A DNA stretch of 64,000 nucleotides from Prauserella flavalba. Lineage in GTDB: Bacteria; Actinomycetota; Actinomycetes; Mycobacteriales; Pseudonocardiaceae. Every line of letters starts with the position of its first letter. The stretch's first letter is position 1. Under the pieces are notes generated by a model that was given only the letters and a program-made list of their open reading frames with translations, was not told where the DNA came from and searched no databases. Positions 593-24,750 of the stretch are shown piece by piece. The DNA lies in contig NZ_MASU01000013.1 of NCBI RefSeq assembly GCF_003202235.1, forward strand, positions 1 to 64,000, written 5' to 3'. The position numbers and the translations under genes were made by a program.

Positions 593-1552
593 ATGAAGGT
601 TCGAAGGATCAGCGTTGTCCTGGCCGCCGGTGCGCTACTGGCGAGTATGACCGCGTGCGGAGGCGGTAACGCGGGCAACAACAACCTCTGGCTCATGGGC
701 ACCGCGCCCACCGGTGGCACCTTCTACGCGGTCGGTGCCGCGATGGCGGAGGTGTCCAACAAGGCCGTTGACGACCTGCGGATCACCGCGCAGGTGTCTG
801 CAGGGTCGTCCGAGGAAAACATCGAGCTGTTGAACCGAGGCGAAATCGAGCTCGGCTTCGTCGACGCCGGGACACTCGCGGAGTACGCGGAAAGCGGCGC
901 GGACACCAGCAAGCTGCGGGTTCTGTTCAACGCCTATCCGAGTGTCATGCACTGGGTGGTCAGCGGCGATTCGGCGGTCAAGAGCCCCGCCGACCTCAAG
1001 GGACAGTCGGTCGCGACCGGCAACCCGAAGTCCGGTATGGAGGCCAACAACCGCGACCTGCTGCAGGCGGGCTGGGACCTGACGTTCGACGACATTGAGC
1101 CCAAGCCGATGCACGTCGAGCCGGGCCTTCAGGCACTGGTCGACGGAAACGTCGAGGCGGTCAACATCCCCTCCGCGGTTCCGCTGTCGTCGGTCGCGCA
1201 GTTCGCGAACCAGCATGCCGTCCGACTGCTCGACCTGTCCGAAGCCGACATCGCCAAGATCCACGAGAAGCGGCCGTTCTGGACGCCGTACACGATCCCG
1301 GGCGGCACGTACAAGGGAACCGACAAGGACAGCCACACGCTCGCGCTGGGTTCCTATCTCGTTACCCGCAACGACGTCGACGAGCAGAAGCTGCGCGCGT
1401 TCGTGAACGCCGTCTTCGCGGGGAGGGACACAATCACCCACACCGTTCCGATCGACCGGCTGCTCGCCCCGGGTGATGCCAGGACCGGGTTCGACTTCCT
1501 GCGCTCGATCGGTGTGGAGCCCTCGCCCGCCGCAGACGTGATCCCCCAATGA
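593..1552 (+). CDS. TAXI family TRAP transporter solute-binding lipoprotein
   Basis: A 319-residue extracytoplasmic binding protein that delivers its ligand to a TRAP permease. The N-terminus is a lipoprotein signal (basic MKVRR, hydrophobic run, lipobox SMTAC with Cys22). The mature part opens with the TAXI hallmark GTAPTGGTFYAVG and continues with ELLNRGEIELGFVDAG and DLKGQSVATG. TAXI proteins bind small acids such as dicarboxylates or glutamate-like compounds; the ligand here is unknown. It is the first gene of a long operon, overlaps the permease by 4 bases (ATGA), and has GGGAG six bases before the ATG. The pairing with a fused permease directly downstream makes the assignment firm. Confidence 0.93.
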   Translation: MKVRRISVVLAAGALLASMTACGGGNAGNNNLWLMGTAPTGGTFYAVGAAMAEVSNKAVDDLRITAQVSAGSSEENIELLNRGEIELGFVDAGTLAEYAESGADTSKLRVLFNAYPSVMHWVVSGDSAVKSPADLKGQSVATGNPKSGMEANNRDLLQAGWDLTFDDIEPKPMHVEPGLQALVDGNVEAVNIPSAVPLSSVAQFANQHAVRLLDLSEADIAKIHEKRPFWTPYTIPGGTYKGTDKDSHTLALGSYLVTRNDVDEQKLRAFVNAVFAGRDTITHTVPIDRLLAPGDARTGFDFLRSIGVEPSPAADVIPQ

Positions 1553-3528
1553 CCGGCACGGACACCGCCGACGTGGCGGCGGGGGAGCTGGACGCGAACT
1601 CGCTCCCCAGGATCCGGCAGGGCGGCATCGCCTCCGTGGTGGCCGTGCTCGCCCTAGCCATGTCGGTCTTCCAGTTGGTGACCGTGGACTACCGGTTCGT
1701 CAGCCAGCACGGCAAGTTCATCATCCACGTCGGATTCGCGCTCGCCATCGTCCTGATCTGGAAGGGTATCGGGCTCACCCGCTCGGGTCGGACCAGACCT
1801 GCGCGGTGGTCGGTGATCGCCGGCGTCGGGGCAGCGGTCGTCGTCGCGGCGATCTCGGCCGTCGCGGTCGGCTCCTACTACGAGCAGTCCGCGCTCGCCG
1901 GTACCGACAAGCCGCTGTGGGTACTGGCCGCCAGCGCGTTCATGCTGTTGGCGCTCTACATCGCCAGTGCGCGGATCGTCGGGATCCTGATGCCGACGAT
2001 CGCGCTGATCTTCTTCCTGTACGCGCACTTCGCCTACGCGTTCCCCGGCTTCCTGCAGGCCCGCGGGATCGACTTCGACCGCCTCCTCGACCGGCTGTTC
2101 CTCACCGCGGAGGGCATCTACAGCCCGGTCACCGGCGTGTCCGCCACGTTCATCTTCATCTTCATCTTGTTCGGGGCGGTCCTGAAACATTCCGGCGCCA
2201 CCGACTTCTACGCGCGGCTCGCGAGCGCGGCGTTCGGGCGCACCCGCGGGGGCGCGGCCAAGGTCGCGGTCGTCGCCAGCGCCGCCTTCGCCATGGTGCC
2301 CGGGTCCTCGATCGCGAACACCGCGTCGACCGGCCAGTTCACCATCCCGATGATGAAGCGGTCCGGCTTCAAGCCCAAGTTCGCCGCGGGCGTCGAGTCG
2401 GTGGCGGCGATGGGCGGCGAGGTCACCCCGCCGTTCATGGCCGGCCTGGTCTTCATCGTGGCGTCGATGCTCGGTGTCGGGTGGGGCGAGATCGTGATCG
2501 CGGCCATCCCGATCGCCATCCTGCTGTACCTGTCGCTGTTCATGTCCGTGCACCTCGAGGCGCTACGGTCCGGCATCGGCGGAGCCGAGGAGGGCGACCG
2601 GGTGCGGGTGCGGGACGTGGCGAAGACCGGCTGGTTCTACCTGCTTCCGCCGCTGGTTCTGCTCGCCCTGCTCCTCCTGCAGTTCCCGCCGGAGCGCGCC
2701 GGGCTGCTCTCGGTGCTGTCGGTGCCGGTCATCCTGTTCTTCACCAAGCGCCGGATGTCCTGGAAGTCGTTGCTGTCCGCGGGGGTCGACGGCGGTCTGA
2801 TGGGCGGGTCGATCGCCGTCATCATCGTCGTCGCGTCGGTCATCGGCGGCATCATCAACTTCACCGGGCTCGGGCTCACGTTCTCCAGCGGCCTGATCGA
2901 CCTGGCGGGCGGCAGCCTCATCGCGATGATCTTCATCGGACTCGCCGCGGCGATCATCCTGGGTATCGGTCTTCCGGTCGTCACCTCGTACGTGATCATG
3001 GCCGTGATGGTCGCGCCCGCGCTCGTGGAGCTGGGCGCCCCGGAGCTCGGCGCGCATCTGTTCGTGCTGTACGGCGCGATGCTCTCGCAGATCTCACCAC
3101 CGGTCGCACCGACGGTCGTGGTGGCGTCGACCATCGCCGGCTCAGGCTTCTGGGAGTCGTCGTGGGTGGCGATGCGGCTCGCGGTGTCGAAGTTCCTGCT
3201 GCCGATCATGCTCATCACGGTCCCGGGCATGCTGATGGACGGCAGCTTCCTGGACGTCACCACGGCGATCCTGCGGGCGATCCCCGTGGTGGGCCTTGCC
3301 GTCATCGCGATTCAGGGCTTCGGCCGCAAGAACGACAACAGCGGTGCGGCGCTGCTGTGGCGGGTGGTCGCCGGGGTCGGCAGCGTCCTGCTGATGTTCC
3401 CGAACACCGTCACCGACATTCTCGGCGTCGCTTGCACGGTCGCCGTCGTCCTCGCCTGGGTCGCATTGGCGCGCGCGGCACGGAAGGCGCGTCTGGCGGC
3501 CGTGACCCTCGAAGAGGAGACCGTATGA
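1549..3528 (+). CDS. TRAP transporter fused permease (small plus large membrane subunits, TAXI type)
   Basis: A 659-residue polytopic membrane protein, the usual size for TRAP permeases in which the 4-TM (DctQ-like) and 12-TM (DctM-like) subunits are fused. Hydrophobic segments cover nearly the whole length. The DctM core shows GSSIANTASTGQFTIPMMKR near residues 250-270 and GLPVVTSYVIMAVMVAP and SQISPPVAPT near 470-525, all typical of TRAP large subunits. It should drive sodium-dependent uptake of the ligand bound by the upstream lipoprotein. It overlaps both neighbours by 4 bases, so translation is coupled from the binding protein into the AtuA gene. Confidence 0.93.
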   Translation: MTGTDTADVAAGELDANSLPRIRQGGIASVVAVLALAMSVFQLVTVDYRFVSQHGKFIIHVGFALAIVLIWKGIGLTRSGRTRPARWSVIAGVGAAVVVAAISAVAVGSYYEQSALAGTDKPLWVLAASAFMLLALYIASARIVGILMPTIALIFFLYAHFAYAFPGFLQARGIDFDRLLDRLFLTAEGIYSPVTGVSATFIFIFILFGAVLKHSGATDFYARLASAAFGRTRGGAAKVAVVASAAFAMVPGSSIANTASTGQFTIPMMKRSGFKPKFAAGVESVAAMGGEVTPPFMAGLVFIVASMLGVGWGEIVIAAIPIAILLYLSLFMSVHLEALRSGIGGAEEGDRVRVRDVAKTGWFYLLPPLVLLALLLLQFPPERAGLLSVLSVPVILFFTKRRMSWKSLLSAGVDGGLMGGSIAVIIVVASVIGGIINFTGLGLTFSSGLIDLAGGSLIAMIFIGLAAAIILGIGLPVVTSYVIMAVMVAPALVELGAPELGAHLFVLYGAMLSQISPPVAPTVVVASTIAGSGFWESSWVAMRLAVSKFLLPIMLITVPGMLMDGSFLDVTTAILRAIPVVGLAVIAIQGFGRKNDNSGAALLWRVVAGVGSVLLMFPNTVTDILGVACTVAVVLAWVALARAARKARLAAVTLEEETV

Positions 3529-4874
3529 CGCCCGCCAACGACACCGTGCGGCTCCTCGCCGCCTCCGGGCAGCTCGGCTACGGCATTCCGGTGCCCGCCT
3601 TCGAGGCGGGGGTCGCCGAACGGCCGGACATGATCGGCGCCGACATGGGCTCGATCGACCCTGGCCCGCACTACCTCGGGTCGGGCAAGGTCGCGGCCGG
3701 AGAGTCTGGCATCGTCCACGACCTCGCCCTCGTGCTCGGCGCCGCCCGGTCGGCCGGTGTTCCGGCGCTCATCGGCAACGCCGGCACGGCTGGACGCGAC
3801 GACCAGCTCGCCCACGTCCTTGACCTGGCCGACCGTGTCCTCGCCGACCAGGGCCGGACCGCCCGGGTCGTCACGATGCGGACACAGGTCGACCGGGAAC
3901 TGCTGCGGGAGCGCCTTCGGGCCGGACGGGTGCGGAGCCTGCCGCACGTACCGCCGCTCACCGAGGAGGTCCTTGACGCCACCGAGGTCGTCGTCGGTCA
4001 GGTAGGCCCCGAGCGGTGGCTGGACGCGCTCGAGTTCGAGCCCGACGTCGTCCTTTCCGGACGCAGCCTCGACACGGCGATCTTCTCGGCCTACGCGATG
4101 CGGCACGGGATCGACCGGGCGACGGCTACGCATGCCGCGAAGATCCTGGAGTGCACGTCACTCGCGGCAGCGCGGCCAGGGCGGGACGCCTCGCTCGGGG
4201 TGCTCCGGCCGGGCGCGTTCGACTTCCGCTCCTGTGGAGAGAACCGGCCATGCACACCACGCAGCGTCGCCGCACACGCCTTCTACGAGCAGTCCGATCC
4301 CAGCCGCATCGTCGAGCCGGGCGGGCATGTGGATCTCCGCGATGCGCGCTACGAGCAGCTTCCTGACGACGCTGTGCGGGTGTCAGGGTCGACGTGGGTG
4401 CCGGCTGACGGCTACGCGGTGAAGATCGAAGGCGCGCGCCGTCGCGGCTGGCGGGCTCTTTCGGTCGCCGGCGTGCTGGACCCGTGCGTTTTCGCCCGCC
4501 GCGCCGAGATCGACGAGGAGGTGCGTGCGGCCGTGCGGCGGGTGACCTCGGGCGCGCAGCTGCGCATCGTCTGGAGTGGAGGGACGGCCGCGCAGGACGG
4601 TGTGGCCTACCCGGCTTCGGTGCTGCTCGACGTTGTCGCATCCACTGAGGACGAGGCGATGTCGGCCGCTGGTGCCGCGAAGCAGTATCTCCTGCACGCC
4701 TCGTATGAGGGGTTGCTGAACAACGGGGGCAACGTGGCCTTCCCGTTCTCGCCGGAGGTCGTGTCCGTCGGACCGGCCTACGAGTTCAGCGTCTATCACC
4801 TGCTGGAGCTGAACCACGTGTCCGAGGTCGGGGTCCTCGACACCGTGACAATCGGAAAGGGACAGTCCACATGA
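3525..4874 (+). CDS. AtuA family (DUF1446) protein
   Basis: A 449-residue protein of the acyclic terpene utilisation AtuA/DUF1446 family, cytoplasmic and of unknown chemistry. Typical features are LLAASGQLGYGIPV at the start, GADMGSIDPGPHYLGSG near 40, a GNAGTAG loop near 85, and the conserved segment VKIEGARRRGWRALSVAGV(L)DP near 300. A second, more canonical member lies at 30279-31667, also beside a TRAP transporter and a DUF4387 gene. The start ATG overlaps the permease stop, and its own stop overlaps the HyuB start (ATGA). In known clusters AtuA accompanies carboxylase and CoA-thioester enzymes. That fits this operon but does not define a reaction. Confidence 0.85.
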   Translation: MTPANDTVRLLAASGQLGYGIPVPAFEAGVAERPDMIGADMGSIDPGPHYLGSGKVAAGESGIVHDLALVLGAARSAGVPALIGNAGTAGRDDQLAHVLDLADRVLADQGRTARVVTMRTQVDRELLRERLRAGRVRSLPHVPPLTEEVLDATEVVVGQVGPERWLDALEFEPDVVLSGRSLDTAIFSAYAMRHGIDRATATHAAKILECTSLAAARPGRDASLGVLRPGAFDFRSCGENRPCTPRSVAAHAFYEQSDPSRIVEPGGHVDLRDARYEQLPDDAVRVSGSTWVPADGYAVKIEGARRRGWRALSVAGVLDPCVFARRAEIDEEVRAAVRRVTSGAQLRIVWSGGTAAQDGVAYPASVLLDVVASTEDEAMSAAGAAKQYLLHASYEGLLNNGGNVAFPFSPEVVSVGPAYEFSVYHLLELNHVSEVGVLDTVTIGKGQST

Positions 4875-6541
4875 CCAACGAATTGGACGAGATCGGGCTG
4901 GGTATCGCCTGGACCAGGCTCGTCTCGGTTGTCGACGAGGCCGCGACCGTACTCAAGCGCTCGTCGTTCTCCACCGTCGTGCGTGAGTCCAACGACTTCG
5001 CCTGCGCGCTGTTGTCGCCGTCCGGGGACGCGATCGCCGAGAACACCATCGGCGTCCCGTCGTTCTCCGGGATCATGGGAAGGGTCACCAAGGGCCTGAT
5101 CGAGTACGTCGGCGACGAGCCGTTCCGGCCCGGCGACCTCTTCCTCACCAACGACCCGTGGATGAACACCGGCCATCTGCCGGACACGACGGTCCTCATG
5201 CCACTGTTCCGCGACGGGCGCCACATTGGGTTCGCCGTGAACGCCGCACACAAGACCGATATCGGCGGCGCCGGTTACGTCGCCACCGGGCGGGACGTCT
5301 TCGAGGAGGGACTGCGCCTTCCCTACGTGCGGATCGCGACCGCGGGCGTGCGCAACCCCGACATCCGCGCGATCGTCGAGGCGAACACCCGCCTGCCTGA
5401 GCAGGTCTGGGGCGACATCGAGGCACAGATCGCGGCGTGCGTACGCACGAGCGAGGGCGTCAACGGGCTGCTGTCGGACCTGGACCTCGATTCGCTCGAC
5501 CACATCGGCCGCCGCATCCAAGCCCGCGCGCGGGCGCGGATGATCGAGGCGATGCGGGTGGTGCCGGAGGGCGTCGTGTCCCGTGGCGAGGTCACCGCCG
5601 ACGGCTACGGCGACGACCCGGTGCGCATCGTGGCGACGATTGAGCGGGTTGGGGACGCCTTGCGGATCGATCTCACGGAAAGCTCGCCGCAGAGCCCCAT
5701 CGGCATCAACTCCACCTACGGTTACTGCTTCGCCTTCGCTTGCTACGCCGTGAAGTGCGCCGTCGACCCCGAGACGCCGAAGAACGAGGGTTCGTACACG
5801 CCCATCGAGGTCGTCACCCGGCCAGGCACGATCGTCGACGCCACGTTCCCGGCCGCGGTGAACGCGCGCTCGATGAGCGGGCATCTCGTTGCCGCCGCCG
5901 TGATGAACGCGCTCGCCGGCGTTGTCCCGGACCTCGTGATCGCCGAGGCGGGGTCGTGCCCGGGGCTGCGCGCGACGGTCAGTGGCACCAGCGCCGAGGG
6001 CGAGCCGTACGTGCAAATGCTGTTCCACAACGGCGGGATGGGGGCGACAGCCCGTGAGGACGGGCTGCCGACGACCGGCTTCCCGACCAACGCGGGCGGC
6101 ACGTCCACCGAGACCATCGAGGCGAACGCGCCGGTTCTCTATCACGTGCGGGAGCTCCTGCCCGACAGCGGCGGGGCCGGCGCGCGGCGCGGTGGCCTCG
6201 GCCAGCAGGTGGAGCTCGAGGTGCTCGACGAGAACGGCGTCGAGCTGCGCACGCAGTTCGACCGGGTCGCCCACCCCGCGCAGGGCCTCCTCGGAGGGGC
6301 GCCGGGCGCGCAGTCGCGGCTCCGTCTCAATGGGACGGACGAGATTCCGGCGAAGGGCCGGATGCGGCTGGTGAAAGGCGACCGGGTGAGCCTGACGTTC
6401 GCGGGCGGCGGCGGCTTCGGCAGCCCCAGTGACCGCGACCCCGCCGATATCGCTCGCGACGTCGAGCTGGGTTACGTGACCCCCGCGAGCGCCGCGAAGG
6501 ATTACGGATTCGAGACCGCTGCGGCGGGACAGGAGAATTGA
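4871..6541 (+). CDS. Hydantoinase B/oxoprolinase family subunit
   Basis: A 556-residue protein of the HyuB family, the partner of HyuA in ATP-dependent hydantoinases, 5-oxoprolinases and acetone-carboxylase-like enzymes. Visible family motifs are NDPWMNTGHLPD near 94-105, AHKTDIGG near 128-135, and a late glycine-rich LTFAGGGGFGSP near 517-528. The N-terminal EAATVLKRSSFSTVVRESNDFACALL is also characteristic. It starts inside the AtuA stop and is followed one base later by HyuA, so the two subunits are probably made together. The family catalyses ATP-driven amide/lactam cleavage or carboxylation; which applies here cannot be read from sequence. Confidence 0.9.
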   Translation: MTNELDEIGLGIAWTRLVSVVDEAATVLKRSSFSTVVRESNDFACALLSPSGDAIAENTIGVPSFSGIMGRVTKGLIEYVGDEPFRPGDLFLTNDPWMNTGHLPDTTVLMPLFRDGRHIGFAVNAAHKTDIGGAGYVATGRDVFEEGLRLPYVRIATAGVRNPDIRAIVEANTRLPEQVWGDIEAQIAACVRTSEGVNGLLSDLDLDSLDHIGRRIQARARARMIEAMRVVPEGVVSRGEVTADGYGDDPVRIVATIERVGDALRIDLTESSPQSPIGINSTYGYCFAFACYAVKCAVDPETPKNEGSYTPIEVVTRPGTIVDATFPAAVNARSMSGHLVAAAVMNALAGVVPDLVIAEAGSCPGLRATVSGTSAEGEPYVQMLFHNGGMGATAREDGLPTTGFPTNAGGTSTETIEANAPVLYHVRELLPDSGGAGARRGGLGQQVELEVLDENGVELRTQFDRVAHPAQGLLGGAPGAQSRLRLNGTDEIPAKGRMRLVKGDRVSLTFAGGGGFGSPSDRDPADIARDVELGYVTPASAAKDYGFETAAAGQEN

Positions 6542-6542
6542 C

Positions 6543-8633
6543 ATGCTGCTCGCGGGTGTTGACATCGGTGGCACGTTCACAGACGTAGTCCTCCTCGACA
6601 CGGAGACCGGCACCGTCGTCACGGCCAAGGTGCTCAGCACCCCTGACGATCTCGTCCGGGGTGTTGTCGAGGGCGTGTTGTCGGCGTGTGAGACAGCTGG
6701 GCGCGCACCGGGTGATGTCGACTCGATCCTGCATGGGACGACCGTGATCACCAACGCGCTCATCGAGCGCCGTGGTCGGCCTACGGCGCTGCTCACGAAC
6801 ACGGGTTTCCGTGATGTCGCCGAGATGGGGACGGAGATCCGTTACGACGTGTTCGACCTGCACCTGCGGACGCCTGAGCCGCTGACGCCGCGTAACCGGC
6901 GGCTCGGAATCGGCGGTCGCTTGCTGGCCGACGGTACCGAGCTCACCCCCGTCGACGAGGCCGAGATCGCCCGCAAGGCACGCGAGGCGGTCGACGCCGG
7001 TGCCGAGGCGATCGCCGTGAGTCTGCTGCACTCCTACGCCAACGGCGCCCACGAGGAAACCGTCAGCGAGGTCGTCCGCCGCGAGCTCGGTACTGACTTC
7101 CCGGTGACCACGTCGCACGACGTCGCGCCGGAGATCGGTGAGTTCGAGCGCACCAGCACCGTCAGCGCGAACGCCTACGTGATGCCGCTCGCGTCGGACT
7201 ACCTCGGCCGCCTCGCGGGCGAGCTGGCCGCGACCGGCCTCACGCCGGAACCGCACATCATGACGTCCAACGGTGGGTTCGTCGACGTCCCGGAGGCCTG
7301 CCGTCGCCCCGTCGCACTCGTCGAGTCGGGGCCGGCGGGAGGCGCGATCGCCGCGGGTTATCTCGCCAATCTGTCTGAAGTGGACAACGTGTTGTCCTTC
7401 GACATGGGTGGTACCACAGCCAAGCTGTGCTTCCTGCAGGAGCGCCGGCCGCGGATGGCGTACACGTTCGAGGCCGCCCGATTGGAGCGGTTCAAGCCCG
7501 GGTCCGGGTTGCCCCTGTCGATCACGGTGCTTGAGATGATCGAGATTGGCGCGGGCGGCGGCTCGATCGCGCACGTCGACGCGATGGGCCTGCTGGCGGT
7601 GGGCCCTCAGAGCGCGGGCGCGCAGCCCGGGCCGGCCTGCTACGGGCGGGGAGGCGAGGAACCGACGGTCACCGATGCCGACGTGTTCACCGGGCTCATC
7701 GGCGCCGACGCGAAGCTCGGCGGTCACCTCAGCCTCGATCGAGAGCTCTCCCGGGCCGCGATCGACCGGCTGGCGAGCGAGGTCGGCGGCGACCTGGATG
7801 CCGCGCGGACGGCCGAGGGGATCCTCAACCAGGTCATCGAGTCCATGGCGCAGGCGGCGCGACTGCACGCGGCGGAGCGCAACATCGATCTGCGCGCGTT
7901 CGACATGGTCGCATTCGGCGGCGCGGGGCCGACGCACGCGTACTTCCTCGCCAAGCGCCTCGGCGTGCCGCGCGTGCACTTCCCGGCCGGCGCGGGCGTG
8001 TTGTCGGCGTACGGGTTCACCGTCGCGGAGTCGCGAGTGGACCTCGTGCGCACATCTACCGGCCAGCTGTCCACACTGGACTGGGAGCGGCAGCGCCAGG
8101 TGCTCGCGGAACTGCGCGAGGAGGCCGAGAGCCGGCTCTCCCGGCTCGCCACCGGCCTCGGGCCGCACGAGCAGGTCATCGAACTCGTCGCCGACATGAA
8201 GCTTCGCGGGCAGGGCTTCGTGCTGAACGTTCCGGTGTCGTTGTCGGCTGTCGCCGACGGCGACAGCGAGCGGGTGAGGGCTTCGTTCGGAGAGACCTAC
8301 GCCGCGGCCTACGGTGTTGCCGCCCCGGACGGGGAGATCGAGCTGGTCAGCTGGCGGCTCACGCTGCGCACCCGGTCCAAGTCGAACGGCGCCCAGCACG
8401 GCTGGGAGGTGCGGCTCGACGAGGCGGCCCCGAACCGGACCCGACGGGTCACCATGCCGTCGTTCGACATGGACGGGGAGATCCCGGTCGTGCGGCGCGA
8501 CGACCTGCCAGACGGTGACGGGATGGCTGGCCCCTTGCTGGTCGAGGACCAGAACACCTCGATCGTCGTCGGTCCCGACGCGACCGTCGCTCGCCGCTCG
8601 TCCGGCGACCTCGTGATGACGATCCGCTCATGA
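6543..8633 (+). CDS. Hydantoinase A/oxoprolinase family subunit
   Basis: A 696-residue HyuA subunit with the ASKHA-type ATP-binding fold. The phosphate-1 loop is GVDIGGTFTDVVLL at residues 5-18. Other family marks are LHGTTVITNALIER near 63, SFDMGGTTAKLCFL near 286, and GAGGGSIAHVDAMGLLAVGP near 337, all well placed. Length and domain order match stand-alone HyuA rather than the about 1,300-residue fused oxoprolinases. With the HyuB gene immediately upstream it should form an ATP-dependent hydrolase or carboxylase acting on the imported substrate or an intermediate. The next gene begins after a 73-base spacer, the largest in the first half of the operon. Confidence 0.9.
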   Translation: MLLAGVDIGGTFTDVVLLDTETGTVVTAKVLSTPDDLVRGVVEGVLSACETAGRAPGDVDSILHGTTVITNALIERRGRPTALLTNTGFRDVAEMGTEIRYDVFDLHLRTPEPLTPRNRRLGIGGRLLADGTELTPVDEAEIARKAREAVDAGAEAIAVSLLHSYANGAHEETVSEVVRRELGTDFPVTTSHDVAPEIGEFERTSTVSANAYVMPLASDYLGRLAGELAATGLTPEPHIMTSNGGFVDVPEACRRPVALVESGPAGGAIAAGYLANLSEVDNVLSFDMGGTTAKLCFLQERRPRMAYTFEAARLERFKPGSGLPLSITVLEMIEIGAGGGSIAHVDAMGLLAVGPQSAGAQPGPACYGRGGEEPTVTDADVFTGLIGADAKLGGHLSLDRELSRAAIDRLASEVGGDLDAARTAEGILNQVIESMAQAARLHAAERNIDLRAFDMVAFGGAGPTHAYFLAKRLGVPRVHFPAGAGVLSAYGFTVAESRVDLVRTSTGQLSTLDWERQRQVLAELREEAESRLSRLATGLGPHEQVIELVADMKLRGQGFVLNVPVSLSAVADGDSERVRASFGETYAAAYGVAAPDGEIELVSWRLTLRTRSKSNGAQHGWEVRLDEAAPNRTRRVTMPSFDMDGEIPVVRRDDLPDGDGMAGPLLVEDQNTSIVVGPDATVARRSSGDLVMTIRS

Positions 8634-8706
8634 GCACACCGTGCAGAACAATCCAGCCTGCACTGGGCGACGACGACCGGCCCGGTCGATCCTGCGAGGG
8701 GGATTC

Positions 8707-10812
8707 GTGAGTCAAGTGGACATTCCGGTGGACAACACGAGCAGCGTCGATCTCGCCGGGTTCGTGCGGCCGGCGTCGGTGCGGCTCGTCGGCCGGTTTG
8801 ACCGGGGTGACAAGCCGCTGGTGAAGATGGCGCGTTATCTGCGCCAACATGGTTTCACCGGACCGGTCGAGGTTGTCACGGACCGCCGCGACGACGCACT
8901 GGCCGGCCACCTGAGTGTGATCGCGACAGACCTCGTCACCTCGCCCGCCGCTGAGCTCGCGGTCGTCGCCGTGCGTGCGCCGCTGGTGGCCGAGACCATC
9001 GACCAGCTCGGGTCGGCCGGCCACCGCCGCGCGGTCATCCTCTCGTCGGGCTTCGGCGAGTCCGGGGGCGCCGATCTGGAGGCCGAGGTGCTGGTCGCGG
9101 CCCGCCGATGGGGGATGCGCGTCGTCGGCCCGAACTGCCAGGGGATCTGGAGTCGGGTCGACGGGTTCGCCGGGTCGTTCAGCGACTACCTCGAGGCTGC
9201 ATCGTCCGAACGGTACGGTCGGACGGCGGTCGTGTCACAGAGCGGGGCGGTGGCGTACTCGCTGGCGTCCCTGCTGGACCGAACAGGCAATCCGGCGGCG
9301 ATGGTGATCAGCACAGGCAACGAGGCCGACCTCGACTGGGCCGAACTCACCGCGCACGCGATCTCCCACCCGCAGGTCGACACGGTGCTCGCCTACCTGG
9401 AGCAGATCGAGTCGATCGACCAACTACGCCGTGCCAACGACGCCGTCCTCGCCGCCGGTGGCCGATTCGCGCTGCTGAAGGGCGGTCGGACACAGCTCGG
9501 GACGAAGGCGGCGGCGTCGCACACCGCCGCGCTCGCGTCGAACGGCGCGGTCCTCGAGCACATCTGCCGGGACCTCGGCATCGACCTGGCCCGCGACCTG
9601 CACGAGCTGGTGGCGGTCGCGTCACTGCCGCCCGCGGCGGACCGGCGCCGGGTCGCCGTGTTGTCGACGTCCGGCGGTACCGGGGTCGTCGCCGCCGATC
9701 TTCTCGGCGACGAACGGATTACGGTGCCGGAGTTCTCCCTCGCCACCCGGCAGGCGCTCGACGGTCTCCTCGGCCCGACGGCGGCGACGGCCAACCCGGT
9801 CGACGTCACCGCTGCGGCCGCGACGGACCCGGGCCTCATTCCCCGGGCGTGGGGCCTGCTCATGGATTCCGGCGAGGTCGACGTGGTCCTCGTGATCATC
9901 ACGATGGTCACCGGCGCGAAGCTGGAGGAAACCGTCACGGGCCTCACCCGCGCGATGGCGGCTCGGCCGGACGCGGCGGCGCCGATGGTGGTGCTCTTCG
10001 CCCCGCCGCCACTGCGCGGAACGGCCGGTGAGCTGTTGCGTGAGGCGGCGATCGTCACGTTCGACACGCTCGCCTCCGCCGTCTCGGCGCTGGCCACGCC
10101 GCGCCTTGGCGACCCGCGCCCCGCCGCGGAGCTGGCCTCCTCGGCCACCCCGCACGAGGGTGGCCCGACGGCCGAGGTGCTCACCGACGTCGCGCTGCTG
10201 GCGGACTTCGCGGCGCTGGGGCTCCCGGTCGTACCGCGTGCCGAGGTGCCGGCCGAGTCGTTGCCGGGCCCGGACATCGGGCCGGGGCCGTTCGTGCTCA
10301 AGCTCATCACCGACGATCTGCACAAGGCGGCCGCCGGAAACATCGATGTCGGTCCGATCGTGCGGGACGACCTCGCCGCGGCGGCGGGCCGGCTCATCGG
10401 TGACCGGTTCGGCGACCACCCACCGCGGGTGCAGGTTCAGCGATACCTGCACGCGGCACTGGAGGTGTTCGTCGGATTCCACCGCGACCGCACGTTCGGC
10501 GCGGTCGCGACGATCGGCCTCGGCGGGCGACTCGCTGAACCGCTGAAAGCGGTCCGCCACTGGACCCTGCCGATCGCGCCGGACGACTTGGCGCGGGGGC
10601 TGCGTGCGACCCTGCTCGGCGAGCTGCTCGACACGCTGCCCGGGGACGCGACCGGCGAGCTGGTACGGGTGGTGTCGGCCCTGGCCGGGTACTTCCTCGA
10701 CCGGCCGGGTCTCACCGAGCTCGACGTCAACCCGGTGCTGTTCGACGTCCGCGGCGAGCCGTGGCTCATCGACGCCGCTGGGCTGGAGATCGCGTCGGAA
10801 GGGAAGAACTGA
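8707..10812 (+). CDS. ADP-forming acyl-CoA synthetase (fused alpha-beta acetate-CoA ligase family)
   Basis: A 701-residue fused NDP-forming acyl-CoA ligase. The order is a CoA-binding Rossmann domain (to about residue 130; VIATD, SSGFGESGG, VGPNCQG), CoA-ligase domains with the phosphohistidine segment ASHTAAL near 270, and a C-terminal ATP-grasp domain with LITDDLHKAAAGNI near 535 carrying the second conserved His. Both relay histidines are therefore present. It makes an acyl-CoA from acid, CoA and ATP, releasing ADP. I prefer GTG 8707, because GAGGGGG lies at 8696-8702; an in-frame GTG at 8641 adds a basic, non-homologous extension. It overlaps the mutase S gene by one base. Confidence 0.88.
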   Translation: MSQVDIPVDNTSSVDLAGFVRPASVRLVGRFDRGDKPLVKMARYLRQHGFTGPVEVVTDRRDDALAGHLSVIATDLVTSPAAELAVVAVRAPLVAETIDQLGSAGHRRAVILSSGFGESGGADLEAEVLVAARRWGMRVVGPNCQGIWSRVDGFAGSFSDYLEAASSERYGRTAVVSQSGAVAYSLASLLDRTGNPAAMVISTGNEADLDWAELTAHAISHPQVDTVLAYLEQIESIDQLRRANDAVLAAGGRFALLKGGRTQLGTKAAASHTAALASNGAVLEHICRDLGIDLARDLHELVAVASLPPAADRRRVAVLSTSGGTGVVAADLLGDERITVPEFSLATRQALDGLLGPTAATANPVDVTAAAATDPGLIPRAWGLLMDSGEVDVVLVIITMVTGAKLEETVTGLTRAMAARPDAAAPMVVLFAPPPLRGTAGELLREAAIVTFDTLASAVSALATPRLGDPRPAAELASSATPHEGGPTAEVLTDVALLADFAALGLPVVPRAEVPAESLPGPDIGPGPFVLKLITDDLHKAAAGNIDVGPIVRDDLAAAAGRLIGDRFGDHPPRVQVQRYLHAALEVFVGFHRDRTFGAVATIGLGGRLAEPLKAVRHWTLPIAPDDLARGLRATLLGELLDTLPGDATGELVRVVSALAGYFLDRPGLTELDVNPVLFDVRGEPWLIDAAGLEIASEGKN

Positions 10813-11234
10813 TGGGAACCGTGGTCACGGGTGCGGCCGGTGACGACGTCCACGTCATCGGGATCCGGCTCGTCGAGATGGGGTTGCGGCACGCTGGGCA
10901 TGACGTCGTGAGCCTGGGCGCGCTGGTTGCTCCAGCCGAGTTCGTCGACGCGGCGCGGGAGTCGAAAGCCGACGCTGTCTTCGCCTCATCGCTCAACGGG
11001 CATGCGCAGTTCTCGCTCGCGGGACTGCGCGACGCGCTGGTCGAGGCCGGTATGGGGCACGTCCTGCTGTACGGGGGCGGGCAGCTCACGATCGGCCGTC
11101 CGCCCTGGGAGGAAGTCGTGGCGCTGTTCGTCGACCGCCTCGGGTTCGACCGCATCTACGACTCCGATGTCCCGATCGAGCAGGTCCTCAGCGACCTGGA
11201 GCAGGACCTCGCTCTGCGGGGTGAGTCCAGGTGA
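10812..11234 (+). CDS. B12-binding small subunit of a glutamate-mutase-like enzyme
   Basis: A 140-residue stand-alone cobalamin-binding domain matching glutamate mutase sigma subunits (about 137 residues). The base-off/His-on motif DxHxxG is present as DVHVIG (Asp12, His14, Gly17). The later conserved loops ASSLNGHAQ and LYGGGQLTIGRPPW correspond to the SSLYG and GGN regions of the family. It supplies the cobalt-ligating His for adenosylcobalamin and pairs with the 11231 gene product. The ATG at 10812 is chosen because it matches the family start and overlaps the upstream stop; the downstream gene begins with a GTGA overlap. Sequence alone cannot show that glutamate is the substrate. Confidence 0.9.
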   Translation: MGTVVTGAAGDDVHVIGIRLVEMGLRHAGHDVVSLGALVAPAEFVDAARESKADAVFASSLNGHAQFSLAGLRDALVEAGMGHVLLYGGGQLTIGRPPWEEVVALFVDRLGFDRIYDSDVPIEQVLSDLEQDLALRGESR

Positions 11235-12667
11235 CCGCCACACCAGAAGGGCTGTCCGACCGCGCCACCGTACTTGCCCAGTATCCGCCGGCCGCCGAGC
11301 AGCTGGACCTTGCAGAGATAGCCGATTTCGTCGTGGCGGAGCCGGCGCACCGCAGGGTGGCCCAGGTCCGCGCCGAGGCCAGGCGCTCTGGCCGGGTGCT
11401 TCTTGAGCCACTCGCCGGATTCGGCGGGGTGAAGCAGCACACCGATGCGCTGACCGTGCTGCGGGACAAGGGAACCGCCGACATACTCCCGACGCAGGTG
11501 GACAGTCAGACGCGCAACCTCAAGTTCGACGAGGTGGCCACCATGCTCGCCGAGCACGGCGACGGACCGCTACCGCTCAACGGCTATCCGATCGTCAACC
11601 ACCCACTCACCGTGACCCGGGACCTCGTATCCACTGTGGATAGGCCGATCGAGCTGCGGATCGGGTCGACGGACCCTCGGCTTGCCGCCGAGATGGCGTT
11701 CGCGGCCGGCATTTCAAGTATCACGGCCGGGCCGCTGTACTACCTTGTCCACTACTCCTCGGCGGTGACCGTCGAGCAGTCGGTCGCCAACTGGGGCTAC
11801 GTGTTCTCGCTGGCGTCCTGGTATGCGCGTCAGGGTGCGCCCGTCGGCCTGCAGGTCCACGGCCTGGGCAACTCCACGCCGTTCCCCGCGTCGCTGCTGG
11901 GCGCGGGTGCCGTGCTGGAATGCCTGATCGCGGCCGCGCGCGGCTGTCGGCATTTCGCCGTCGACTCCCGGCTGATGGGTAACCTCCGCCAGGACGTTGC
12001 GAGCCTGCGCGCCATCCGGGACGCCGTCGAGCACTACCTCGCCCAGGCCGGTGTGGACGACGCGGTGGTGACGATGGTGCGCAAGACGTGGGCAGGCCGC
12101 TACCCGGCCGACGAGGCCCGCGCCTTCGGGCTGATCTCCTACACCGCCGTGTCGGGCATGCTCTCCGGTGCTGACGAGTTCATCAGCAACTCAGTGCAGG
12201 AGGGCGTCGGGATCCCCGATCCCGAGGCGAACGCCGCCTCGCTGCGGGCGATTCGCCACGTGGTGGACCTGCTCGGCCCTCAGCCGGAGCTGACTCGCGA
12301 GGACGAGGGGGTGGAGCGCGAGTACGCGCTGATCACCGCCGAGCTACACGCGATCGTCGACGCGGTTCTCGATCTCGGCGAGGGAAACCCGGGCCGCGGT
12401 TCGGCGCGGGCGCTGGAGCTGGGCGTACTCGACGTGCCGTTCGCGGCGAGCCGGACCTGCCGCGGCGAGGTCGTCACCGCGCGCGATTCCGAGGGCGCCG
12501 TGCGGTTCGTCGACTTTGGCCGGCTGCCGATCCCCGACTGGTGCCGGAAGTTCCACAGCGACGCGATGGAGCGGCGGCTCGCACGCACGGCCAAGTCGGT
12601 CTACGACGTCGTCGTCAGCGACATCTTCTCGATCAGCAACGGCCCTCTCGTGGAGGTGGCGGAGTGA
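11231..12667 (+). CDS. Large (epsilon-like) subunit of a B12-dependent carbon-skeleton mutase, glutamate mutase family
   Basis: A 478-residue TIM-barrel subunit, close in length to clostridial GlmE (about 483). Family landmarks align without large gaps: VLLEPLAGFGG near 57, ILPTQVDSQTRNLKFDE near 85, PLNGYPIVNHP at 115-125, IELRIGSTDPR at 140-150 and a VTMVRKTWAGRYPADEARAFG segment near 280. Against GlmE as I recall it, Arg100, Arg149, Tyr177 and Tyr181 are kept (Arg95, Arg143, Tyr171, Tyr175). Arg66 is replaced by Leu61 and Glu171 by Thr165. In GlmE these two contact a substrate carboxylate and the amino group. The radical rearrangement should be retained but the substrate is probably not glutamate. 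It starts with GTG inside the preceding stop. Confidence 0.88.
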   Translation: MTATPEGLSDRATVLAQYPPAAEQLDLAEIADFVVAEPAHRRVAQVRAEARRSGRVLLEPLAGFGGVKQHTDALTVLRDKGTADILPTQVDSQTRNLKFDEVATMLAEHGDGPLPLNGYPIVNHPLTVTRDLVSTVDRPIELRIGSTDPRLAAEMAFAAGISSITAGPLYYLVHYSSAVTVEQSVANWGYVFSLASWYARQGAPVGLQVHGLGNSTPFPASLLGAGAVLECLIAAARGCRHFAVDSRLMGNLRQDVASLRAIRDAVEHYLAQAGVDDAVVTMVRKTWAGRYPADEARAFGLISYTAVSGMLSGADEFISNSVQEGVGIPDPEANAASLRAIRHVVDLLGPQPELTREDEGVEREYALITAELHAIVDAVLDLGEGNPGRGSARALELGVLDVPFAASRTCRGEVVTARDSEGAVRFVDFGRLPIPDWCRKFHSDAMERRLARTAKSVYDVVVSDIFSISNGPLVEVAE

Positions 12668-12987
12668 CCACGGTGCCCAGCACGACCTACCGGCCGATCA
12701 TGGTGCGCAGCAAGAACGCCGGGCCGTTCACGCTCACGATCGACGTGATGTTCGACGACCCCGCCGACGCCGTCCGCCTCCACGCCGACCTGACGTCCGG
12801 GACGCTCGAGCCCGCGCTCGGCCCCGTCGCGGGCGAGGACGTGCGGGTGTATCTGGACGAGACGGCCGCGGCCGTGAAGCTCTCCGTCGGGCGCGCGCTC
12901 CCGGCCGGTTCGGCGGGTGACCTCGACCTCTACGGCTGCCAGCAACATGTCGGGGTCCTCGCCGCGTTGGGTGTCCCGCTGCCATGA
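12664..12987 (+). CDS. DUF4387 domain protein
   Basis: A 107-residue cytoplasmic protein recognised as DUF4387 by IMVRSKNAGPFTLTIDVMFDD near the N-terminus and DLYGCQQHVGVLAALGVPLP at the C-terminus. The same two signatures (RSKNAG and D-x-(Y/F)-GCQQ) occur in the DUF4387 gene at 29947-30270, although the middle differs. DUF4387 is often fused to or encoded beside AtuA; here the partner lies earlier in the operon. The GTG start overlaps the mutase stop (GTGA) and the stop overlaps the GlmL-like start (ATGA). Its biochemical role is unknown. Confidence 0.82.
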   Translation: MTTVPSTTYRPIMVRSKNAGPFTLTIDVMFDDPADAVRLHADLTSGTLEPALGPVAGEDVRVYLDETAAAVKLSVGRALPAGSAGDLDLYGCQQHVGVLAALGVPLP

Positions 12988-14300
12988 CCGTGGTTCTCGC
13001 GGATATCGGCAGCACGTTCACCAAGGTCCGCGCCTACGACACCGGCGGCGACCTGGTGTGGGGCGATCAGGTGCCGACCGCCGCGCCGGACCTCGGCCTG
13101 AGGCTGGGCGACCTCGCGTCCTCGGCCGGCATCGACATCCGCGGCCGCGTCCCGGCGTGCTCAAGCGCGGCCGGCGGTCTGCGGATCGTGGCGCTGGGCC
13201 TCACCCAGACGTTCACCCGAAAAGCCGCGCGCACCGCTGCCCTCGGCGCGGGCGGGCGGATCGTCGGCGACTACAGCTTTCCGCTGACCGACACCGATGT
13301 CGTGGATCTGGAGGAGTGCGCAGCCGATGTCATCCTGCTCACCGGCGGGAGCGACGGCGGGGACGCCGACGCGGCGGTGGGTTTCGCCGAGGCGCTGGCG
13401 GAGGTCCGCCGCCCGCTGGCGGTGGTGGTGGCGTGTAACCGGCAGGTCGCCCGCCGTTGCTCCGAGACGCTCACCCGCGCCGGCCACCGCGCCGAGGTGG
13501 TCGACAACATCATGCCTGACGTCGGCACGCTCAACGCCGAACCGGTGCGCGCGGCTGTCCGCCGGATCTTCCTGGACACCGTGATCGGGCGGGTGACCGG
13601 GGAGAAGACCCGCGCGTTCGAGGTGCGCCAGCCGACCCCGGCAGCCGTGCTCGGCGCGGCGCGGCTGCTGTCCCACACCGACGACCGAGGCGCGCTCGTG
13701 GTTGACGTCGGCGGTGCGACGACCGACGTCCACTCCGTCCTCGCGCCCGGGCAGGTCGCGACCCCGTCGGCGGGAATGAGGATGGCTGAGCAGTCGACCC
13801 GCACGGTCGAGGCCGACCTGGGCATGCGGGAGAGCGCCGAAGCGGCGCGGGAGGCGGCGCGTCGTGCGGGCCTCGACGAGCCCACCGGCCTGGATGAGCA
13901 CCTCGCCCAGCGGGTGCGCGACGTCACGCTCATCGACCCGCGCGGCCAGGTCGACCGGTGGCTGGCCACGACCTGCGCCACACTCGCGCTCCAGCGTCAC
14001 GTCGGGCACCTGGTCCTGCTGCCGTCGGTCGGCGGCGGCGTCGAGGCCCACGCCGTCGGTCGCGACCTGCGCGATGCCGGCCGGGTCGTGGCGACCGGCG
14101 GAGTGCTCAGCCGCGACGACGGCACCACGATGGCGGCTGCGCTTGCGGGCCCACCGGACCTACTGCTGCCTCGCCGTGCGGTCGTGTCAACCGACGCGAA
14201 CTACGAACTGGCGACGATCGGCGTACTCGCCAGCGTCGACGCGGCACTGGCCGCCAAAGCGATGACCCGGCTCGTGCGCGATTGGGACGCGCAGATTTGA
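12984..14300 (+). CDS. GlmL/MutL-type mutase accessory protein (ASKHA ATPase)
   Basis: A 438-residue protein of the GlmL family found next to glutamate mutase S and E subunits, where it is thought to act as a chaperone or reactivase. The ASKHA ATPase signature is at the N-terminus (VVLADIGSTFTKVRAYD) and a second phosphate-binding strand is LVVDVGGATTDVHSV near 233. Other family features are CSSAAGGLRIVALGL near 53 and a MPDVGTLN segment near 175. The S-E-L trio in one operon supports a working adenosylcobalamin mutase rather than scattered homologues. It is followed by a 24-base gap and an acyl-CoA dehydrogenase. Confidence 0.88.
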   Translation: MTVVLADIGSTFTKVRAYDTGGDLVWGDQVPTAAPDLGLRLGDLASSAGIDIRGRVPACSSAAGGLRIVALGLTQTFTRKAARTAALGAGGRIVGDYSFPLTDTDVVDLEECAADVILLTGGSDGGDADAAVGFAEALAEVRRPLAVVVACNRQVARRCSETLTRAGHRAEVVDNIMPDVGTLNAEPVRAAVRRIFLDTVIGRVTGEKTRAFEVRQPTPAAVLGAARLLSHTDDRGALVVDVGGATTDVHSVLAPGQVATPSAGMRMAEQSTRTVEADLGMRESAEAAREAARRAGLDEPTGLDEHLAQRVRDVTLIDPRGQVDRWLATTCATLALQRHVGHLVLLPSVGGGVEAHAVGRDLRDAGRVVATGGVLSRDDGTTMAAALAGPPDLLLPRRAVVSTDANYELATIGVLASVDAALAAKAMTRLVRDWDAQI

Positions 14301-14324
14301 CCACTGAACAGAGAGAGGCGTTCG

Positions 14325-15479
14325 ATGAGTCACCTGACCGCGGAACAGATGCAGCTGAGGGAAAGTGCAGGCGCGGTGGCTGACCGCTACTACGCCGACA
14401 AGGCGCTGGAATGGGACGCGGCCGCCACCCACCTGCCCGATGAGGAACGCCGCCGACTCGGTGAGCTCGGTTACCTCGGCATCGCCATCGGCGAGCAGTG
14501 GGGCGGCAGCGGCGGCAGCCTGATGGACGCGCTGGTAGTCGTCGAGGAGGTCGCCAAGCGGTGCTCACTCCCGGCGTTCCAGATCTTCGAGGCCAACACC
14601 GGACCCGCGCGCGTCGTCGAGCTGTACGGCACCGAGGAACAGCGTGCGCGCTACCTGCCCGAGATCGTCGCCGGCCAGGCCACCATGGCCATCTCGATCA
14701 GCGAACCCAACGCGGGCAGCGCCGCGACCGACATGCTGACCCGCGGCAAGGTCGACGGCGACACGATCGTCATCAACGGGCAGAAGAGGTGGTGCTCCGG
14801 CGCGGGCGCCGCGGAGTACTACCTCGTGTACCTCCGCCTGTCCGACGAGCGCGGCGCGGCCGGCATCGGCGCGGTGATCGTCCCGAAGGACGCGCCAGGC
14901 CTGACGTTCGGACCGCGGGAACAGCTGATGGGCTTCCGCGGCGTGCCATCCGCGGACATGTTCTTCGACAACGTGCGCGTGCCGGCATCCGATGTGGTGG
15001 TGCCCGCGGGCGGGTTCTCCCGGCTGTTCGGCGCGTTCTCGATCGAGCGGCTCGGCAACGCGACGATGAGCCTGTCGCTCGCGCAGGCCGCGCTCGACCG
15101 GACGGCCGCCTACGTCCAGGAGCGACAGCAGTTCGGCCGGGATATCGTGGAGTTCCAGGCGGTACAGACCCAGCTGGCGGACATGGTGATGCAGGTCGAG
15201 GCGGCGCGGCTGTTGATCTGGCGGGCGGCGATGTCGGCGAATCCGCTGCCGGACGTCGGGCAGGTGTCGGTCGCGAAGTGCTTCGCCAACGAGATGGCCA
15301 AGCGCGTGACCGCGACCGCGATGGAGCTCCACGGTGGCTACGGCTACCACCGCGAATATCACGTCGAGCGGTACATGCGTGACGCGGCCGGCTGGGCGAT
15401 CGCTGGCGGGACGCCGGCGATCCAGCGGACGAGGATCGCGTCGGAGTACCTGGGCCGACGGTTCGGGCAACGCCGATGA
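14325..15479 (+). CDS. Acyl-CoA dehydrogenase
   Basis: A 384-residue FAD-dependent acyl-CoA dehydrogenase of normal length. Signatures are TMAISISEPNAGSAATDM near 120-137 (FAD/substrate loop) and the C-terminal GGYGYHREYHVERYMRDAAGWAIAGG. The position of the MCAD-type catalytic Glu in the YEGT motif is Gly here (AGGTPAIQR). A Glu is present at SIERL (Glu241), where isovaleryl- and long-chain acyl-CoA dehydrogenases carry their base, so an active enzyme of that type is likely. It would introduce an alpha,beta double bond into the CoA ester formed in this pathway. It is the last structural gene before the regulator. Confidence 0.9.
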   Translation: MSHLTAEQMQLRESAGAVADRYYADKALEWDAAATHLPDEERRRLGELGYLGIAIGEQWGGSGGSLMDALVVVEEVAKRCSLPAFQIFEANTGPARVVELYGTEEQRARYLPEIVAGQATMAISISEPNAGSAATDMLTRGKVDGDTIVINGQKRWCSGAGAAEYYLVYLRLSDERGAAGIGAVIVPKDAPGLTFGPREQLMGFRGVPSADMFFDNVRVPASDVVVPAGGFSRLFGAFSIERLGNATMSLSLAQAALDRTAAYVQERQQFGRDIVEFQAVQTQLADMVMQVEAARLLIWRAAMSANPLPDVGQVSVAKCFANEMAKRVTATAMELHGGYGYHREYHVERYMRDAAGWAIAGGTPAIQRTRIASEYLGRRFGQRR

Positions 15480-15539
15480 GGCCGGGTATGCCATCGTGTA
15501 TGCGGTTCGCTGTGTGCGGTGGCGGATGAGGGAGTGAAC

Positions 15540-16202
15540 ATGAGGTCCGACGGAGTGGCTGCGGCACTCGGGTACCTGCGCGACGGGATCGTCGCGGGAC
15601 GGTTCACGCCCGGCGAGAAGCTCAACCAGGAGGACATCGCTCAGGCGCTGGGCATGAGCCGCATCCCGGTCCGCGAGGCGCTCGGGATCCTCGCCGCCGA
15701 GGGTGCGGTCGAGTACGTCAAGAACCGCGGCTACACGGTCCCGAAGATCAGCGTCGAGCTGCTCGACGAGATCTACCGCATGCGCACCCTCCTCGAGAGC
15801 GACCTGTTACGTCACATCCACCAGCCATCCCCGGAGGAGATCCGGGACCTCAACGACATCAACGACCGCATGCGCGAGGCCGCGGACTCGGGGAATCTGG
15901 CGGACTTCGTACCCCTGAACCGCCGATTCCACTTCGCGGTCTTCGAACTCGGCGACGCGCCCCTGATGACCAAGATGATCGACCGTTTGTGGACGCTGTC
16001 GGAGTCCTATCGCGCTCTGTACCTCTACGACTCTCGCAACGCCGCCCGCTCATGGCACGAGCACCGCGAACTGATCGAGGCCCTCGAGTCGATGGACCTC
16101 GAGCGCTGCGTCAGCATCTCGGACGCCCACCGCCGCTCCGCCCAGGATCACGTTCGCGGCTTCCTCCTTGCCCGCCAGTCCCCGGCGCACTCCATTCCCT
16201 GA
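15540..16202 (+). CDS. GntR family regulator (FCD/FadR subfamily)
   Basis: A 220-residue regulator with an N-terminal winged helix-turn-helix (EKLNQEDIAQALGMSRIPVREALGILAAEGAV near 29-60) and an all-helical FCD ligand-binding domain (LLDEIYRMRTLLESDLLR, FHFAVFELGDAPLM). FCD regulators usually sense acids or CoA-pathway metabolites. ATG 15540 is chosen because GAGGGA lies at 15528-15533; a GTG at 15519 would include that site. It follows the acyl-CoA dehydrogenase by 60 bases on the same strand. It probably controls the operon from the palindromic sites upstream of 593, though this is inferred. Confidence 0.88.
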   Translation: MRSDGVAAALGYLRDGIVAGRFTPGEKLNQEDIAQALGMSRIPVREALGILAAEGAVEYVKNRGYTVPKISVELLDEIYRMRTLLESDLLRHIHQPSPEEIRDLNDINDRMREAADSGNLADFVPLNRRFHFAVFELGDAPLMTKMIDRLWTLSESYRALYLYDSRNAARSWHEHRELIEALESMDLERCVSISDAHRRSAQDHVRGFLLARQSPAHSIP

Positions 16203-19103: not shown

Positions 19104-19146
19104 CCCGTCCGCGGCCCCACGGGCCTACCTACCGAGAGATGATGAG

Positions 19147-20178: not shown

Positions 20179-20211
20179 TCAAGCTGGATCGAGCCGGCTG
20201 GCACCCCCTGC

Positions 20212-20251
20212 ACGCAAGGTGGCCCAGGCAGGTACCTGGGCCACCTTGCGT
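20212..20251. terminator. Bidirectional hairpin terminator between tctC and the IclR gene
   Basis: Perfect 17-bp inverted repeat: left arm 20212-20228 (ACGCAAGGTGGCCCAGG), 6-base loop CAGGTA, right arm 20235-20251. It lies between the convergent tctC (stop 20178) and iclR-type gene (stop 20267), so it can serve both. No T-run follows, which is usual in actinobacteria. Confidence 0.85.
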
Positions 20252-20266
20252 TCGCTGGGGCGAGAT

Positions 20267-24749: not shown

Positions 24750-24750
24750 T

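Follow-up and report, generated by a model that had tools for sequence, protein, structure and literature searches.

The 64-kb window analysed here (the whole stretch of 64,000 nucleotides, from contig NZ_MASU01000013.1 of Prauserella flavalba) carries a predicted catabolic operon of 12 genes, all on the plus strand at 593-16202, the core of which encodes a mutase of the glutamate mutase type (GlmS, GlmE and GlmL) with an altered catalytic pocket. On balance, we favour a role for this operon in the catabolism of an imported small acid or lactam, in which the core adenosylcobalamin (AdoCbl) mutase would not act on glutamate. A wider proposal is put forward tentatively, namely that this is an undescribed AdoCbl carbon-skeleton mutase in which the pocket for the migrating group has been remodelled to take a substrate other than an amino acid, that at least two such variant types occur in the phylum, each encoded by the side of an acyl-coenzyme A (CoA) ligase and a carbon-carbon lyase, and that the acid is rearranged and then split. 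The main interest lies in the altered pocket and in a sister pair of enzymes from two other genomes, more than in the list of the genes. To our knowledge, few AdoCbl carbon-skeleton mutases have been described; these include the methylmalonyl-, ethylmalonyl-, isobutyryl-, 2-hydroxyisobutyryl- and pivalyl-CoA mutases, glutamate mutase and 2-methyleneglutarate mutase.

The catalytic subunit of the window was aligned with 111 other GlmE sequences selected by GlmE similarity (that of C. cochlearium, the numbering of which is used here for GlmE, 30 from plasmids and genome samples, and 80 from named loci). Not included were a partial GlmE (L014) and the entries L025-L027, which come from the contigs of L022-L024; L024 shares its contig with L075, so that at least one duplicate is present among the 111. 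Fifty-seven positions are conserved in at least 95% of the sequences and the window GlmE deviates at 15 of them, including eight that are invariant in the 111: R66L, H150I, E171T, G172A, P180H, E214Q, M294A and K326N. As described in PMC9545868 (the same work as PMC10947579), R66, R149 and E171 of glutamate mutase bind the glycyl fragment and R100 and Y177 bind the acrylate. On the glycyl side only R149 is kept in the window GlmE, and both acrylate-side residues are retained. With R66 and E171 lost and R100 and Y177 kept, the window mutase therefore probably moves a group other than glycyl; the side facing the migrating group appears rebuilt and the acrylate side preserved, and glutamate should probably fit poorly. 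Compared with glutamate mutase of known structure (PDB 1ccw, 6h9e; GlmE 33-36% identical), the window shares the families, the trio of subunits, the B12 motif and R100, R149, Y177, Y181, N123 and E330, but differs at the eight positions above and in having no methylaspartase with it. The window GlmE also falls below the equivalog model for the family (TIGR01503, 336 bits against a cut-off of 390.1).

GlmS keeps the B12-binding D-x-H-x-x-G motif (D26, H28 and G31 of its open reading frame, ORF), and GlmL retains 74 of the 92 conserved positions, with 226.3 bits over the family cut-off of TIGR01319 (204.05) and 308.4 bits under the equivalog cut-off of NF040745 (475). Because the motif and most of the conserved GlmL positions are retained, the trio is likely to be still a B12 mutase that depends on its partner protein. 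A cobalamin adenosyltransferase is encoded in the host genome (8.09 Mb, 39 contigs; GC 64-76%).

GlmE was searched in five overlapping samples of 60, 396, 390, 394 and 338 genomes, each including the host genome, with E-value thresholds between 1e-3 and 1e-70 and with neighbourhoods inspected for the returned loci. The samples at the class and order levels yielded two further GlmE sequences, in the genomes G1118 (33% identity, 258 bits) and G1230 (37%, 274 bits), which share 70% identity; 37% was the highest identity to the window protein of any GlmE outside the host genome in the five samples. An alignment scan for GlmE relatives was followed for the best 80 of 557 confirmed matches, which are the 80 named loci. 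A scan of the genome contigs gave 88 stretches and none confirmed; it requires exact eight-residue matches and overlooks the majority of moderately similar relatives, so that it carries little weight.

In both sister proteins the substitutions are H150A, E171V, G172S, Y177A, P180E, E214D and M294N, with R66, R100, R149 and K326 kept. The sisters thus resemble the window in having H150, E171, G172, P180, E214 and M294 replaced and in the adjoining ligase and lyase genes, but differ in keeping R66 and K326 and in the replacements themselves, as at H150A, E171V, Y177A and M294N. When they are added to the alignment (n=113), only R66 and K326 are still invariant outside the window and six of the eight invariances are broken. 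The gene order common to the two genomes is GlmS, GlmE, a citryl-CoA-lyase-like protein, an ATP-grasp subunit and a CoA-binding subunit; an aldehyde dehydrogenase gene accompanies the set in both, but not on the same side. In contrast to the window, their ligase is of the two-subunit succinyl-CoA-synthetase-like type, no CmlAB (see below) was seen, and a MeaB gene lies downstream in G1118, which also has an acyl-CoA dehydrogenase directly upstream and an APH-family kinase-like gene. Read in this manner, the same phylum would have GlmE-type mutases whose pockets are not made for glutamate and whose genes adjoin those of a CoA ligase and a lyase. Such a clade, without the amine-binding glutamate but with the B12 motif and an acrylate-side arginine, is a defined and testable lead to a new reaction. 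The loci lie at 175-6666 of L173 (G1230, in which the contig starts at GlmS) and at 14368-20000 of L174 with 1-6195 of L175 (G1118). The sister-type cluster was found in one of 17 genomes around G1118, that one being G1118 itself. A gene for HyuB with a C-terminal acetone-carboxylase gamma domain is located on the opposite strand near the mutase cluster of G1118 (8430-10628 of L175).

In a phylogenetic tree of 32 proteins the window GlmE groups with G1118 and G1230 at 100/97, with an explicit warning for long branches. In a tree of 56 proteins without the sister pair, the window GlmE falls outside the 33 GlmSEL proteins (100/98) and is placed, weakly supported (82/32), with a different long-branched pair.

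Of the enzymes that follow the mutase in the classical glutamate route, methylaspartase was not detected in the window, and in the host genome the best match to PF07476, the C-terminal family and the only one searched, reaches 21.4 bits against a cut-off of 27; one class I fumarase, which might serve as a mesaconase, is encoded on a different contig (254.6 bits). Methylaspartase is present in 77 of the 80 named GlmE loci, the other three lying on stretches of 4.5, 5.4 and 15.3 kb, while CmlAB occurs in ten, each of them with methylaspartase, an ACS-like match (ADP-forming acyl-CoA synthetase) in one (L088), and HyuAB or acyl-CoA dehydrogenase (ACAD) in none. The methylaspartate pathway clusters found in enterobacteria and anaerobes (L020, L034, L112, and PMC4682846) share the mutase trio and the AtuA/DUF4387 pair with the window but contain methylaspartase and often a class I fumarase; the operon has neither and carries a TAXI-TRAP importer, HyuAB, ACS and ACAD in addition. 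The first-pass annotation, made from the sequence, had set the operon apart from the classical glutamate route, and the missing methylaspartase and the altered pocket bear this out. It had also reported methylaspartase, mesaconase and citramalate lyase as absent, which holds for methylaspartase but not for citramalate lyase, homologues of which are present. One locus in a Bacillota metagenome-assembled genome (MAG) has the order GlmS-GlmL-GlmE-CmlA-CmlB-methylaspartase-fumarase, with CmlAB before methylaspartase (L112, 8121-15200), and one in a deltaproteobacterial MAG has a 672-residue ORF matching both GlmE and GlmS beside urocanase, followed by an ORF of 985 residues with MutL in its C-terminal half (L048, 5108-10337).

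The AtuA-family and DUF4387 proteins of the operon match the two chains of PDB 9erq and 9evf, named 'Citramalate lyase, subunit A (cmlA)' and 'subunit B (cmlB)', and are referred to here as CmlA and CmlB. Of the positions on which at least 95% of 21 other proteins agree, the window CmlA retains 55 of 63 and CmlB 15 of 17. The pair probably cleaves a carbon-carbon bond. As in citramalate lyase, both subunits are encoded in one operon and the conserved positions are mostly kept; the window differs in that the two genes lie 7.8 kb apart (47 of the 49 further CmlA loci have a CmlB match nearby), and in that an altered mutase and CoA enzymes, and not methylaspartase and mesaconase, would feed the lyase. 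The genomic surroundings of relatives are in line with the lyase assignment: on Salmonella and Prevotella plasmids AtuA/DUF4387 follow glmS-glmL-glmE-methylaspartase near a class I fumarase, and in Ensifer and Rhizobium clusters a CoA-transferase and a CoA ester lyase stand in their place. PMC4682846 places a DUF1446 gene downstream of mal in enterobacteria and does not settle the fate of citramalate. No publication on CmlAB or DUF4387 was found among the titles listed from the open-licence literature. A function of AtuA/DUF4387 as terpene enzymes was considered and rejected in view of the citramalate lyase match and of the lack of terpene genes among the operon families. Relatives of the operon genes are annotated as 'methylaspartate mutase subunit E' or 'acyclic terpene utilization AtuA family protein', names that are misleading for the reconstruction of pathways.

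A further AtuA/DUF4387 pair is encoded on the minus strand of the window (DUF4387 at about 29950-30270, AtuA at 30279-31667), together with a regulator of the GntR-UTRA type (31745-32497) and a gene for a TRAP DctM protein (32692-34062, plus strand). Of the 63 conserved positions this AtuA lacks 17, among them H200, Y294, H398, S416 and P417, and it may therefore act on a different substrate.

The best NCBIfam models for HyuA and HyuB are the caprolactamase subunits (alpha for HyuA), with 406.7 and 206.2 bits against cut-offs of 1000 each. The two domains are thus shared with caprolactamase CapAB and other ATP-dependent enzymes of the hydantoinase family, but the scores of the window lie far under the equivalog cut-off. 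ACS is a single polypeptide with a CoA-binding, a ligase and an ATP-grasp domain (PF13380, PF13607, PF13549) and does not reach the cut-offs of the equivalog models for acetate, 4-hydroxybutyrate and 3-hydroxypropionate. The closest PDB match of ACAD, 5af7, was aligned with it; we take this structure to be 3-sulfinopropionyl-CoA desulfinase, presumably carrying Gln246 where the catalytic base (Glu) would stand and requiring R84. The window protein has Glu and Phe at these two positions, and the desulfinase assignment was rejected; because of the Glu at the catalytic-base position, ACAD is likely to be a true dehydrogenase.

Parts of the gene set recur elsewhere. Among 386 genomes of the family, CmlA was found in 44 at E <= 1e-60, including the host genome, the rest being 34-38% identical to the window protein. 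A set of 49 other CmlA loci, most of them on stretches of only about 4 kb, has HyuAB in none and ACS with ACAD in one, a Halomarina plasmid (L037, a haloarchaeon) with genes for AtuA, DUF4387, an amidohydrolase, an isochorismatase-family protein, an ADP-forming ligase (31% identical to that of the window), an ACAD (40%) and aconitase-like proteins in a row. CmlAB together with HyuB-HyuA, the Hyu proteins being 43-45% identical to those of the window, occurs on plasmids of Cupriavidus oxalaticus (L156), Variovorax paradoxus (L157) and V. boronicumulans (L164, with about 6 kb between CmlAB and HyuBA). In contrast to the window, the opened stretches of these three plasmids have no mutase, ACS or ACAD, and a D-2-hydroxyacid dehydrogenase (annotated as phosphoglycerate dehydrogenase) and a TctC-type binding protein are present instead. 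These three account for the CmlAB-containing members of the six best HyuB records; the opened stretches of Shinella WSC3-e and Antarctobacter have no CmlAB, and that of Shinella WSD5-1 was left unopened. The best HyuA record, from Variovorax sp. RA8, has no CmlAB in its opened stretch. The plasmid clusters and L037 link CmlAB to amide-hydrolysing or ATP-dependent Hyu enzymes and to CoA steps, without a mutase. Co-occurrence in other genomes, proposed earlier as a check, is therefore seen for parts of the set (CmlAB-HyuBA on the three plasmids, and an altered-pocket GlmE with a ligase and a lyase in two genomes) and not for the whole.

From these components we infer a catabolic sequence in which the TAXI-TRAP system would import the substrate and HyuAB would open a ring amide or a similar bond at the expense of ATP, or prime the substrate in another way. 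GlmSE with AdoCbl would then catalyse the 1,2-migration of a group X, X-CH2-CH2-COO- <-> X-CH(CH3)-COO-, where X is not glycyl. ACS would activate the product to its CoA ester, ACAD would oxidise it, and hydration would be performed by an enzyme encoded outside the operon. CmlAB, if citramalate-lyase-like, would cleave the resulting hydroxy acid to acetate and a 2-oxo acid, and the GntR regulator would control the operon from its leader. The order suggested before (HyuAB, mutase, CoA ester, oxidation) left AtuA/DUF4387 without a role although the pair is probably a lyase. The importer, the mutase and the lyase in one operon offer three independent handles on the substrate.

Several observations weigh against this reconstruction. 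GlmS deviates at 19 of 41 conserved positions and the branch of the window GlmE in the 56-protein tree is 2.36 against a median of 0.26, so that the change of the pocket may partly reflect general divergence. K326N has no role in the available part of PMC9545868, in which the terms searched also returned none for H150, P180, E214 and M294. The reaction of HyuAB is not fixed by the models, as both subunits lie under every equivalog cut-off, the operon has no hydratase gene, and the activity proposed for CmlAB follows the names of PDB entries. The first-pass annotation had named a gene order conserved in no other genome as a ground for refuting its reading; the full order was not seen in the five samples and the full gene set in no other place examined, which leaves the operon as a unit without support from conservation.

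The loss of the amine-binding E171, the CmlAB lyase and the pairing of ACS with ACAD would also be explained by a mutase acting on a non-amino C5 dicarboxylate (2-hydroxyglutarate, 2-methyleneglutarate or glutarate) to give 3-methylmalate, 3-methylitaconate or methylsuccinate, with ACS and ACAD working on the product (e.g. methylsuccinyl-CoA to mesaconyl-CoA) and CmlAB cleaving citramalate or methylmalate to small acids. Wild-type glutamate mutase slowly converts 2-hydroxyglutarate to 3-methylmalate, and the sister GlmE pair, which lacks E171 yet has all three claw arginines, is as expected for an amine-free dicarboxylate. In the window, however, the glycyl-binding R66 is lost and a second carboxylate would be bound more weakly, glutarate offers no obvious radical-stabilising group and HyuAB is left unexplained; we regard this alternative as unlikely. 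In a glutamate route of another form, HyuAB would yield glutamate by opening pyroglutamate or a hydantoin, GlmSE would form 3-methylaspartate, unlinked enzymes would perform deamination and hydration, and CmlAB would cleave citramalate. It is consistent with the joint occurrence of GlmSEL and CmlAB in glutamate clusters, with the membership of HyuAB in the hydantoinase/oxoprolinase families and with the fumarase encoded elsewhere in the genome, and TAXI proteins can bind glutamate. The loss of the glycyl-binding R66 and of E171, the lack of a methylaspartase above the cut-off in the C-terminal family search of the genome, and an ACS and an ACAD without a role make it very improbable.

The operon may also consist of two or three unrelated modules (importer with CmlAB-HyuBA, mutase, and CoA enzymes) under one promoter and not of one pathway, or the mutase may be inactive, as the unique combination among the genomes and loci examined, the wide separation of CmlA from CmlB and the very long GlmE branch would suggest. 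We consider this rather improbable: all the ORFs are intact with starts that overlap or nearly so, CmlA, CmlB and GlmL keep most of the conserved residues, cmlB lies between glmE and glmL so that the modules are interleaved, and the combinations of CmlAB with HyuBA and of CmlAB with GlmSEL each recur elsewhere. A single pathway for an imported acid or lactam, built on a mutase that does not act on glutamate, is the explanation we retain.

The ORF coordinates confirm the 12 same-direction genes, mostly overlapping, that had been described (Table 1). Neighbouring genes overlap by 1-4 bases or are separated by gaps of 1-39 bp, the sole uncertain gap being that between HyuA and ACS (7 or 73 bp, set by the ACS start at 8641 or 8707), and none of the 12 ORFs has an internal stop. 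Domain searches agreed with the earlier gene names at scores far above the cut-offs and far above chance (e.g. GlmE/PF06368, 371 bits against 26.6; HyuB/PF02538, 431 bits against 26.8), and the claim that an importer, HyuAB, a B12 mutase and CoA enzymes share one operon is supported.

Table 1. Features of the predicted operon and its leader in the window
Feature	Position	Strand	Basis
Near-palindromes, candidate GntR operator sites	510-519 TTGCATTCAA, 563-572 CTGCATGCAA	.	Leader position
TAXI-family TRAP solute-binding protein	593-1552	+	TIGR02122 204.8 bits, cut-off 84.35
Fused TRAP transporter permease	1549-3528	+	TIGR02123 455.4 bits, cut-off 320.65
AtuA-family protein, CmlA homologue	3525-4874	+	9erq_A 275.5 bits, E 9.1e-81
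HyuB (hydantoinase B/oxoprolinase family)	4871-6541	+	PF02538 430.6 bits
HyuA (hydantoinase A/oxoprolinase family)	6543-8633	+	PF01968, PF05378
ADP-forming acyl-CoA synthetase (ACS)	8641 or 8707-10812	+	PF13607, PF13549, PF13380
GlmS-type B12-binding mutase subunit	about 10812-11234	+	NF002612 134.5 bits (cut-off 110); TIGR01501 117.2 (cut-off 135.8)
GlmE-type catalytic subunit, altered pocket	11231-12667	+	PF06368 371.4 bits; TIGR01503 336 (cut-off 390.1)
DUF4387 protein, CmlB homologue	12664-12987	+	PF14330 66.8 bits; 9erq_B E 8e-10
GlmL/MutL, mutase partner protein	12984-14300	+	PF13941 317.3 bits
Acyl-CoA dehydrogenase (ACAD)	14325-15479	+	PF00441, PF02770, PF02771
GntR/FCD transcriptional regulator	15519-16202	+	PF00392, PF07729

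The near-palindromes TTGCATTCAA and CTGCATGCAA in the leader might be sites of the GntR regulator. Their pattern, which was picked after the leader was seen and is favoured by position alone, has no other places in the 64 kb at up to one mismatch (four matches over both strands), and 12 of 100 shuffles also reach four matches. The promoter and terminator scan gave no promoter-like and two terminator-like sites, the means of the shuffles being higher (0.8 and 3.8), and no inverted repeats of at least 10 bp were found in the leader.

Beyond the operon the window continues with catabolic genes at 16993-28385. TctABC genes (16993-20178) begin 790 bp after it, with a convergent IclR gene, and are counted here as lying outside the operon; the region further contains genes for a ring-hydroxylating beta-subunit domain, a ferredoxin-reductase-type protein, an MFS protein and a GntR regulator, together with a 3-hydroxyisobutyrate-dehydrogenase-like gene and a class II aldolase gene.

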